Source: Corynebacterium bouchesdurhonense (GTDB lineage: Bacteria > Actinomycetota > Actinomycetes > Mycobacteriales > Mycobacteriaceae). From it: a stretch of DNA of 64,000 nt. The stretch spans positions 62,001 through 126,000 of the forward strand of contig NZ_LT546028.1 of assembly GCF_900078305.2 (NCBI RefSeq), given 5' to 3'. A program made the position numbers and the translations under genes. The notes under the pieces were generated by a model. That model was not told the DNA's origin. It worked only from the letters and a program-made list of their open reading frames with translations, and searched no databases. Position 1 is the stretch's first letter, and each line of letters starts with the position of its first letter. This document shows, one piece after another, positions 17,308-53,125 of this stretch.

Positions 17308-20064
17308 CTAGCGACGGTCGATGTCGTCCAGCTCGCCCGAGGGCCACAGCACGTTCTTGGCCAGCGGGATCTGGTGCGAGGCGCTCTCAAGGATGTGCAT
17401 GAAGTAGCCGGCGGTGTTCGGGATCGCGACGAGGTCTCCCGCCGCGACACCGCGGGGGAAGCGGATCTTCCGCCGCAGGATCAGTTCGTCCTCGATACAG
17501 TAGGCGCCGACCAAGAACGCCTCGATCTCCTCGCTCGGCGAGGTCCGCTTGACCAGGTAGGGGTCGATGAGGAAGTCATCCGACGTCGTGCGGCACTGGG
17601 TGCGGTTCATGGCTAGGCCCACCAGGGGCACGCCGTCGGAACGGGTCTTGGCGAAGGCGACTTCGGCAAGGGTTAGCCCGCAGCCGTCGACAAGCGAGCG
17701 CCCCGGCTCAAGATGCAGACGCAACCCGCGCTCGCGCAGCGCCTCTGCGACGCCGCCGGAGAGTACCTCGGTGAGCCACGCGCCGCGCGTCGGCTCCTGC
17801 CAGTACGGGTACGTGTTGCGCAACGGGTCGGTCTTCCAGGTAAAGGGCTCGGCGTAACCGCTGCGCTGCAGCGCGATCGCGTGCTGGTACGCGCGCCATT
17901 GCGCCTCATCCGCCAGGTAGGACATGGGCACACCTCCCCCAATGTCCACGAACGCGGGCGCGTGGCCGGATGCAGCCAGCGCGTCAACAAGCCGCATGCA
18001 CTCGCGCAGCGCGGACGCGCGGTCCGCCGCCGCGTAGCCGTGCAGGTGCGCGTGGATTCCCACGACCCCGAGGTTTCGGCGCGGCGTGCGAAAGTACTCC
18101 GCCCAGGCGTCGAGGCGCTCGCCGAAGCGAGTCGGCGGCATCGTGCGCGGGTCCGGGGCGAGCCGGGGCGCGACCTTGGCCACCGCGCCGCGCGCGGTGG
18201 CGAGCCGAGCGATGCGCTCCGCCTCCGCGCGGCTGTCCGCGGAGATAACCACCGCGTTGTCGATGGCCAGGGCCAACAGCCGGTCGGGCTTGATCGCCGC
18301 GGAGCAGATGATCCGCTCCCCGGGCATCCCCCGCTCGAGCACTTGGCGCAGCTCGTTCTCGCTGGCGACGTCGACGCCGTGGCCCATCTCGCGCGCCTCG
18401 TCGGCGAATACCAGCGCCTTGTTGGCTTTGCGAGCGAAGAACACCTTCGTCTCCACGCCCGCCGCGGCCCCTGCGCGCACGAGCTCGTCGATGTTGTCAC
18501 GCATCGGTGCGGGGTTGACGACGTTGACGGGGCTGCCAAACGTTTCGACGAGCCGGGCGCACTCCTGCCCATCCCCCAGCAGTTCACGCCACCAGCTCAC
18601 CTCGCGCGGCCGCAGCGGCGGCAGGCCGTGGACCCGCTCCGGGTCGGCGAGCGCGGCACGTGTCACGCGACGCGCCCACGCGGGGATGACCTCGTGCTCG
18701 CCGCGGCGCAGCGTGTCGTGCCCGAGGATCCACCCCTCGCTCACTCTGCCTGCGGCGGCGATGTGGCGCTGGCCCGCGAGGGTGCCGTCGCGTTCGACCA
18801 TGAGCGAGCCGGTCTCCGGGTGCTCCCGGCCGATGCCGCGGCGCACCAGCTCCGCCTCGAGGGTGCCCTCGACGAGGCCGGGCGGGGCATTGACGGCGTC
18901 GATGACGGCGGAGGCGCCGACCTCGCGGGCGAGCTGCGCCAGGTCCTCGTCCCCGCGCCCGAGCAGGTCCGTGCGGATGCGCCCGGAGTCGATGAGGGCG
19001 AGCACTTCCCCGGCAGTTTCAGCGGGAGGGCCGAAGGCGACGCGCTCGAGAGTGCGGGTGAGCCTGCCGAAGCGCTCGCCGCCGATGGAGTCGCGGCCGC
19101 CGAAGGAGGATCGCTCGATCACCGCGTCGTAGGCGGCGCGGAAGGCGTAGCCCACCGCCGCCTCGGGCGTCCAGGCGCGTTCACCGAGCGCGACCCCGAG
19201 GGAGGCGCGCAGATCCTCGACGGGGTCCGCGCGGTCCTTGCCGTCCAACACCGCGCGAACGCCCGCCTCGTCCGGGCCGGCCCCGCTCGCGGCGAGGACC
19301 TCACCGGAAAGCTCGACGAGGGCCTCGTACACGTCTTCAAAGCCCTCCGCCGTGCGGATCCGCTCCCGCGCGAGCGCCAGCGCCGGGCCGAGCTGCGCCG
19401 CGACGTCGTCGGGCAGGAAGGCCTTGACGGCCATGAAGCGCCCGCCCCGGGTCAACGGGTAGAACACCCCGGCCCGGGCGTGGCGCACGACGTCAACGAA
19501 AGTCAAGGCGGCACCCCTGACTATCGCGATATCCGCCTCGGTCACCGCGTCCAGGTCGCCGGGAGCGAAAGCGCTGAGCACCTTGCCCACACCCTCGACC
19601 CCGCCGCGGGTCAGGGCGCCGGGCCAGTCGTGGGCGTGGCCGGTGGTGAGCAGGGCTTCGTCGTAAAGCGTGCCCTCGACATCGACCCCCTCCCCGGCGG
19701 GTGCGACCTCCCGCACCCGCGCATCCACGAAGCTCAGCGAGCACGAGAGCGGCACGTGCGCTGCGAGCGCTGCCCAGGAGGCGGCGAGGAAGCGGGCGAC
19801 CTCGCGGCGCGGCGGGAAGGTGTCGCCCGCCCCGCGCCAGTCGTTGAACGTCCCGAGGTGCGTCTCCACGACCTCGGAGGGGACGTTGAGCAGCCACTGG
19901 GCAGGCAGGCCGGGCTGGTAGGCGCCGGGCCCGCTCGCACCGCTGACGGGGCCGTCGTTGTAGACGTCCAGCTCGATCGCCGCGCCACGCTCGCGCGCCC
20001 TGGCCATGAGCTCCTCCGCGGCCCAGAGCCCGCGCGGGCCGGCCCCGATGATCGCTGCCCTCAT
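17308..20064 (-). CDS. Fusion: FAD/NAD(P)-binding domain + PLP-dependent decarboxylase
   Basis: A 918-residue protein from ATG 20064. Residues 1 to about 510 form an FAD/NAD(P)-binding module (RAAIIGAGPRG at the N-terminus; NVPSEVVETHLGTF; TTGHAHDW). Residues about 530-918 are a fold-III PLP decarboxylase of the LysA/SbnH type: FFARKANKAL with the Schiff-base Lys, GIHAHLHGYA, DIGGGVPMSY and LEPGRSLVDGCG. SbnH decarboxylates a citryl-diaminopropionate intermediate in staphyloferrin B synthesis; the same role here is only inferred. The start overlaps the sbnA-like stop (TGATG) with GAAAGGA upstream, so the two genes are coupled. The partner reaction of the FAD domain is unknown. Confidence 0.8.
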   Translation of the reverse strand: MRAAIIGAGPRGLWAAEELMARARERGAAIELDVYNDGPVSGASGPGAYQPGLPAQWLLNVPSEVVETHLGTFNDWRGAGDTFPPRREVARFLAASWAALAAHVPLSCSLSFVDARVREVAPAGEGVDVEGTLYDEALLTTGHAHDWPGALTRGGVEGVGKVLSAFAPGDLDAVTEADIAIVRGAALTFVDVVRHARAGVFYPLTRGGRFMAVKAFLPDDVAAQLGPALALARERIRTAEGFEDVYEALVELSGEVLAASGAGPDEAGVRAVLDGKDRADPVEDLRASLGVALGERAWTPEAAVGYAFRAAYDAVIERSSFGGRDSIGGERFGRLTRTLERVAFGPPAETAGEVLALIDSGRIRTDLLGRGDEDLAQLAREVGASAVIDAVNAPPGLVEGTLEAELVRRGIGREHPETGSLMVERDGTLAGQRHIAAAGRVSEGWILGHDTLRRGEHEVIPAWARRVTRAALADPERVHGLPPLRPREVSWWRELLGDGQECARLVETFGSPVNVVNPAPMRDNIDELVRAGAAAGVETKVFFARKANKALVFADEAREMGHGVDVASENELRQVLERGMPGERIICSAAIKPDRLLALAIDNAVVISADSRAEAERIARLATARGAVAKVAPRLAPDPRTMPPTRFGERLDAWAEYFRTPRRNLGVVGIHAHLHGYAAADRASALRECMRLVDALAASGHAPAFVDIGGGVPMSYLADEAQWRAYQHAIALQRSGYAEPFTWKTDPLRNTYPYWQEPTRGAWLTEVLSGGVAEALRERGLRLHLEPGRSLVDGCGLTLAEVAFAKTRSDGVPLVGLAMNRTQCRTTSDDFLIDPYLVKRTSPSEEIEAFLVGAYCIEDELILRRKIRFPRGVAAGDLVAIPNTAGYFMHILESASHQIPLAKNVLWPSGELDDIDRR
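17685..17695 (-). repeat. Dispersed motif copy, minus orientation
   Basis: Exact 11-mer GCTTGTCGACG read on the minus strand, inside the decarboxylase domain (SLVDG). Confidence 0.6.
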
Positions 20065-21014
20065 CAGTTCACGTTCCTTTCGACCCATTCGTCGTTGTAG
20101 ATCGTATCCAGGTACGCGCGGCCGTCGTCGTGGAAGACCGCCACGATCTCCGCCCCCTCGTTCTCGCGCGCGAGCTTCTCGACGCCCACGCACACCGCCC
20201 CGCCCGAGGCACCGGGCAGAAAGCCGGTTGACCGCGCGCAGCGCCGCGCCGCCGCCACCGCGTCGCGCGCGTTGACCCGGATCACCTCGTCAGGAACGGT
20301 CTCGCGCGACAGCTCGGTGACGACACCCGCCCCGTAGCCGGGGAGGATGCGCTCGCCCCGGGTGCCGCCGAAGAGGACGGAGCCCTCGGCGTCGACGGCG
20401 ATGGCGCGGGTGGGCAGACCGTTGTCGCGGATGTGGCGGGCGGGCCCCCCCCCGGGGGCGGGGGGGGGGGCGGCGGGGGGGGGGGGGGCGGGGGGGGGGG
20501 GGGGGCGCCCCGCCCCCCCCCCCGCCCCCCCCCCCCCGCGGGGGGGGGGGGGGGGGCCGGCGGGGGGGGTCCTTTTATCCCACCCTACCCCCCCGCCGGC
20601 CCTACGCCCCACCAGCGCGCGTCGCGCGGTGAGCCAGTCCCCCGTCTCAGGGTCGGGCTCCTCGACCGGGTGGATGTGCGCGCCGAGGGCGCGCATGTGG
20701 GCGAGCGTGGCCTGGTTGGTGCGCGGGTCGACGACGCAGTGGAACTCCCCCCCGCCGACGGCCGCCTCGCGGGCGAGAGCCACGCCCAGATTTCCGGAGC
20801 TCGACTCCACGACGACGCCGCCCGGGCCGAGCACGCCGCGCTCGAGGGCGTCGGCGACGAGGGCGCGGGCTGTGCGGTCCTTGGCGCTGCCGCCGGGGTT
20901 GAAGGACTCGAGTTTGGCCCAGACCCGGGCGTTCCCGCCGCCGAGCTCGGGAAGGAAAACGAGGGGCGTGCCGCCCACTGCAGCGAGCAGGCCCGGGGAT
21001 ATTTCGGAAAGCAT
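20064..21014 (-). CDS. sbnA: SbnA-like PLP synthase, middle part corrupted
   Basis: Cysteine-synthase-fold enzyme resembling SbnA, which joins O-phosphoserine and glutamate on the way to L-2,3-diaminopropionate. ATG 21014 is 7 nt after TAAGCT on the minus strand. KLESFNPGGSAKDR holds the PLP Lys, ESSSGNLGVALA the Asn loop, VVDPRTN and EEPDPETGD fit SbnA. The C-terminal part (RHIRDNGLPTRAIAVDAEGS ... LPGYGAGVV ... PGASGGAV) also fits. About 50 residues between them, where the TGS phosphate loop should be, are replaced by Gly/Pro/Arg runs from a G/C homopolymer stretch. The gene is probably intact in the organism. Confidence 0.78.
   Translation of the reverse strand: MLSEISPGLLAAVGGTPLVFLPELGGGNARVWAKLESFNPGGSAKDRTARALVADALERGVLGPGGVVVESSSGNLGVALAREAAVGGGEFHCVVDPRTNQATLAHMRALGAHIHPVEEPDPETGDWLTARRALVGRRAGGGVGWDKRTPPAGPPPPPRGGGGAGGGAGRPPPPPAPPPPAAPPPAPGGGPARHIRDNGLPTRAIAVDAEGSVLFGGTRGERILPGYGAGVVTELSRETVPDEVIRVNARDAVAAARRCARSTGFLPGASGGAVCVGVEKLARENEGAEIVAVFHDDGRAYLDTIYNDEWVERNVN
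20445..20600. other. G/C homopolymer tract, probable sequence artefact
   Basis: Long runs of only G or C with rare other bases replace the middle of sbnA, ending near a CTTTTATCCC patch. The length is close to that of the missing protein segment (about 56 codons). This is more like failed base calling or gap filling than biology. Confidence 0.8.
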
Positions 21015-52841: not shown

Positions 52842-52973
52842 TTAGCCGAGTTGGAGCCAGTGGCCGGTGCCCTTGTCCGGGGCGGTCTCCGGCCTGGTGG
52901 CCTCCAGCTTGTTCTTCTGCCAGACGTAGACTTTGCCGTCGGTGTAGCGGCGGGGTTTGCCCCCCTCTCTTTT
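52842..52973 (-). pseudogene. Partial small phage tail gene (C-terminus)
   Basis: The minus frame reads RRYTDGKVYVWQKNKLEATR and ends WLQLG and TAA at 52842. No start is available in frame: TGA lies at 52976-52974, just upstream. A run of six G (GAGGGGGGC) lies near its beginning; one G fewer would join it to GTG 52977. A real small gene broken by a sequence error or truncation is likely. Confidence 0.5.
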
Positions 52974-53125
52974 TCACATCTTACGCGGCCGGCGACCCTA
53001 CCCGTGCGGGTGTCCGTGGGGGGGGGGGACGTTGTAGAAAGAAGAAAAGAAAGCCAAGAAGAGAGCAGTTCACACTGAAACTATTGAAACATAAATAAAG
53101 TGGCGTATAACTCAAATAGGATCGG
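52974..53125. other. AT-rich patch with an 11-G run, no gene
   Basis: An 11-G run near 53019-53029 is followed by about 95 bp rich in A (GAAAGAAGAAAAGAAAG and ATAAATAAAG), unlike the GC-rich phage around it. No gene, promoter or repeat is convincing. Misassembly or adapter-derived sequence is the leading explanation. Confidence 0.6.

Follow-up and report, generated by a model that had tools for sequence, protein, structure and literature searches.

G and C homopolymer runs within the SbnA-family gene of a Corynebacterium bouchesdurhonense draft assembly, almost certainly a sequencing or assembly artefact

The window analysed here is a stretch of 64,000 nucleotides from contig NZ_LT546028.1 of the Corynebacterium bouchesdurhonense assembly GCF_900078305.2. 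On its minus strand, at positions 20064 to 21014, lies an open reading frame of the SbnA family (PLP-dependent, of the type that serves 2,3-diaminopropionate biosynthesis), which is 316 amino acids long as assembled and corrupted in its middle. Similarity to Pfam PALP is also found in this frame. The TIGR03945 profile gave 238.6 bits on the window gene, with the match split into two stretches, one on each flank of a block of homopolymeric G and C, whereas in the closest loci found, those of C. mucifaciens (L039) and C. senegalense (L040), it gave 318.2 and 317.0 bits, each in one unbroken stretch. All three scores lie below the curated TIGR03945 cut-off of 349.95 bits and, since this includes the two intact genes, "SbnA-family" is the safer name. 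The lysine of a SAKDRT stretch, which we take to be the PLP lysine, is retained in the window gene; the TGS loop, which reads STTGT in the alignment rows of the relatives, is lost. Adjoining the gene, also on the minus strand, one frame at 17308 to 20070 encodes both an FAD/NAD(P)-binding domain (Pfam NAD_binding_9) and a decarboxylase domain of the PLP-dependent kind (Orn_Arg_deC_N), and the C. mucifaciens frame is equally long (961 amino acids in each, counted from the first start codon). A plasmid collection searched with the SbnA-family gene returned nine records (eight from Streptomyces and one from Deinococcus), whose short matches of 70-77% were uninformative.

The corrupted stretch of the gene runs from 20443 to 20604 on the minus strand, that is, over 162 nt, and overwrites about residues 137 to 191 (some 55 residues). 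Its core, assigned to neither strand, is a series of alternating long G and C runs, free of A and T over 135 nt (20435 to 20569); the next longest stretch of this kind in the window measures 25 nt. Runs of at least seven letters in the block are C9, G11, G14, G16, C11, C13, G17, G8 and C7, and, given the GG and CC frequencies of the window itself, the entire 2.26 Mb genome would be expected to have 0.01 runs of at least 16 G or C. The first 8 nt of the core (20435 to 20442) still match C. mucifaciens, and mismatches begin at 20443. At the right edge (20570 to 20604, likewise assigned to neither strand) A and T are back and the sequence is still wrong, native letters being found again from 20605. 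An earlier note, made from the letters alone, had described a block of G/C runs at 20445 to 20600 in place of roughly 56 residues of SbnA, the TGS loop among them, with good SbnA sequence on both sides; each of these points was borne out, the block being slightly wider than noted. The same note had held that the frame stays open only because such runs seldom contain stops. The reason given is sound, but a second one adds to it, the number of bases being unchanged.

Comparison with the two relatives revealed that the SbnA-family gene is intact in both, extending over 316 residues from end to end (the length also of the listed C. mucifaciens frame) without any G/C block; ordinary genes of the same length lacking the feature are what an artefact in the window would lead one to expect of close relatives. 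Outside 20430-20615 the window and the C. mucifaciens locus agree in 6351 of 6529 columns, three columns being gapped, and outside the block the window agrees in 5897 of 6544 columns with C. senegalense, a genome that may itself be adaptor-bearing. The 10-nt bins flanking the block (20380-20439 and 20610-20699) are in full agreement with C. mucifaciens. Offsets to the C. mucifaciens locus are equal for the left and right flanks (17066, difference 0), and the block thus substitutes native sequence without net insertion or deletion, so that its length, earlier thought to match the missing part roughly, is exactly the native one.

Agreement letter by letter was then evaluated by setting the block in register with the native C. 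mucifaciens sequence. Over 20443-20570, 66 of 128 letters agree, whereas 6395 slides average 44.8 and never exceed 65; shuffling the native letters 5000 times did not once give 66. When 20443-20604 is taken together, 77 of 162 letters agree, a value reached by one of the 6395 slides and two of the 5000 shuffles. Taken by part, 35 of 63 letters agree in 20443-20505 (equalled by 5 of 6395 slides) and 31 of 65 in 20506-20570 (equalled by 160), and the 34-nt right edge, 20571-20604, in which A and T occur, has 11 of 34 (equalled by 2726), which is chance level and leaves no in-register native trace there. In 20443-20570, 42 of 52 native G and 24 of 40 native C were kept; 13 of 15 native A appear as G, and of 21 native T, 11 appear as C and 10 as G. 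Because agreement in register exceeds that of all slides, the G/C part resembles a degraded reading of the native gene, and on its letters it looks like native sequence with degraded base calls rather than foreign DNA. A degraded in-register copy, as an artefact would produce, is therefore seen for 20443-20570 and not for the edge at 20571-20604.

The length and register result is that of one block, the one in sbnA. Three other blocks of the assembly (L134, L132 and L122) were compared with C. mucifaciens and C. senegalense, and clean length conservation was not seen in these comparisons; the main flank matches were 70-80% alike, and the gaps between pieces differed or one side was unaligned. 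With flanks that align so poorly, nothing can be claimed about the length of these blocks. For L134, 20 relatives offered no better comparator, the best being 82% alike on one flank.

The sbnA block is one of many places of its kind in the assembly, a draft comprising 2,255,644 bases in 18 contigs. On the two strands together, a stretch of ten G preceded by another letter is found at 47 places. Twenty regions around these places were fetched, the sbnA block included (the place at C18:1134152 lies outside them but within another fetched locus, L219), and all 20 contain G or C runs of at least ten, one of them a run of 83 C, with G/C blocks of up to 210 nt. The order of the two letters depends on the threshold and so gives no firm help: with runs of at least ten, G comes first in six of six two-letter blocks (L126, L131, L132, L134, L137 and L138), and with runs of at least seven it comes first in four of seven, L122, L126 and L137 then beginning with C, the sbnA block being one of these three. 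The G/C blocks of L131 and L138 both begin after nearly identical sequence, a repeat whose last letters are ggttgtggataacggc; the reverse complement of that repeat precedes the adaptor copies at L138 and L210.

Adaptor sequence was also found in the assembly. With up to three mismatches the 19-nt Nextera end matched 25 sites in the genome and the reversed pattern none, and library adaptor is thus present elsewhere in the same contigs, as an artefact of library origin would imply; the P7 end was found at four places, two of them exact, and its reversed pattern at none. Adaptor context was read in 23 of the 38 fetched loci of this genome, most of which had been picked for holding a match; 20 of the 23 gave 22 adaptor copies (up to four mismatches), 21 of them distinct, L138 and L218 being one place. 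All but one of the 21 distinct copies extend into one of the Nextera arms, i5 or i7 (up to five mismatches of 14 or 15). Substitutions in the copies, taken in read direction and with one site counted twice, lead to C in 57 of 93 cases and to G in 15 of 93.

What follows the adaptor varies. In the window itself, a degraded read-through copy of the Nextera i5 adaptor, closed by a run of 11 G (L127), lies on the plus strand at 52963 to 53028 and constitutes a second artefact; from 52963 to about 53110, adaptor, 11 G and an A-rich tail are unlike their surroundings and are apparently assembled read junk. This copy and L219 (G000:C18:1134192, G000 being the genome studied here) both have a G run of at least 11 within about 25 nt after the adaptor arm and then A-rich sequence, and L213 has a run of eight G after the arm. 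In L128 (G000:C18:179220-179395), L206 and L220 (G000:C18:428637-429260) the adaptor end passes into an A run; L128 has a poly-G block, then the degraded read-through adaptor, then a long A-rich run. Inside or beside the sbnA block no adaptor was found; the window as a whole gave just the copy at 52963.

In a survey of the genus, the Nextera end was matched in 15 of 242 genomes and the reversed control in 13, with at most three control matches per genome; as the control is comparably frequent, single matches in other genomes are near chance. Three or more matches were found in the genome studied here (25), G028 (105), G096 (12), G071 (5) and G197 (3, which does not exceed the control maximum), so that three of the 241 other genomes (105, 12 and 5 matches) are clearly above chance for adaptor-like sites. 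G028, with 105 near-copies at up to three mismatches against none for the reversed pattern, is probably a heavily contaminated assembly. Runs of at least 16 G occur in 10 of the 242 genomes, the present one included. These genomes share three (G000, G028 and G197) with the five adaptor genomes (chance 0.0005) and two with the four that exceed the control maximum (chance 0.009). With the present genome left out because it had prompted the question, two of four were common (chance 0.007), or one of three (chance 0.11), and a link between G runs and adaptor across genomes is suggestive only.

The intact relatives, the equal length, the register trace, the like places and the adaptor copies together support what the earlier note had proposed, a sequencing or assembly fault within a good sbnA. 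We put at about 0.94 the probability that the block is a sequencing or assembly artefact from untrimmed, low-quality Nextera read ends kept in the consensus, and the G/C block is almost certainly not a biological feature. On this explanation, Illumina reads of a Nextera library would have been left untrimmed, with low-quality ends in which base calls collapsed to G or C, and these failing ends would have entered the consensus at a part of sbnA with poor coverage, where native length and frame survived and the letters were lost. Insertions and deletions are rare in Illumina reads, which would explain why length and frame were kept although the letters were not. Failing reads would be the direct cause of the block, coverage at the block would have been low, and the real sbnA of the cell is probably intact. 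Some observations sit less easily with the mechanism: no adaptor copy was found at the block, the register signal is uneven along it, with the right edge at chance, clean length conservation was not seen at the three other blocks compared, and the C-leaning substitutions in the adaptor copies do not simply predict G runs. As reasons for read failure at this place, a hairpin and extreme GC content were considered and rejected; the minimum free energy of the native C. mucifaciens region ranks 119 and 137 of 260 sliding windows, and its GC content, at rank 121, is ordinary.

Other origins of the block were weighed against untrimmed failing read ends. One proposal is two-colour dropout, in which dark cycles on instruments of the NextSeq/NovaSeq type would be called G, with forward reads leaving G runs and reverse reads C runs. 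On two-channel machines G carries no label (PMC11140927). The consistent G-first order among blocks with runs of at least ten agrees with such dropout, but at the lower threshold of seven the order is lost, and the adaptor substitutions favour C over G. Four-colour machines typically give poly-A beyond the adaptor end, and at L128, L206 and L220 it is poly-A rather than poly-G that stands there. Two-colour poly-G as the mechanism is not borne out by the poly-A sequences and the run order at seven or more, and this origin is unlikely. A comparably doubtful proposal is that a scaffolding or gap-closing step spanned a gap of known size with poor reads or junk. The length of the block, which equals the native gap exactly, and its right edge, which agrees with native sequence at chance, are what such a step would leave; against it, the in-register agreement of the G/C part exceeds all 6395 slides, which argues that most of the block derives from the locus. 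Gap filling and untrimmed failing read ends can be combined, if poor reads from the locus were used by a gap closer.

It is very improbable that the block is real DNA, a strain-specific G/C tract that replaced the middle of sbnA or into which it degenerated. In its favour are the tract's presence in the assembly and the open frame, but the native length of the tract, the partial agreement in register and immediate flanks identical to those of C. mucifaciens all speak against this origin, as do the roughly 20 comparable places and the many adaptor copies of this assembly and the rarity in the genus of runs of 16 G or more. Equally improbable is the biological event that it would entail, namely that a real tract destroyed the SbnA-family enzyme and that a siderophore-precursor pathway was recently lost by replacement at constant length.

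If the artefact reading holds, an error that preserves length and frame would be expected to pass into annotation as an enzyme of full length carrying a Gly/Pro insert. Errors of this type are invisible in the completeness figure listed for the genome, 99.83%. The value of the case is as a warning only: adaptor ends and G/C runs should be checked before gene loss is claimed.

In summary, the window gene is like the SbnA-family enzyme of C. mucifaciens, nearly identical to it outside the block and of the same 316 residues, and differs in that it alone has about 55 nonsense residues in mid-gene. The assembly around it resembles drafts with untrimmed Illumina/Nextera read-through, in which the Nextera end with its i5 or i7 arm, the P7 end and poly-A are likewise found in contigs, whereas the sbnA block itself has only degraded base calls and no adaptor. 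With the poly-G tails of two-channel machines it shares long G runs, together with C runs as if from the other strand; it departs from them in the poly-A that follows the adaptor end in this assembly and in a run order that varies with the threshold.
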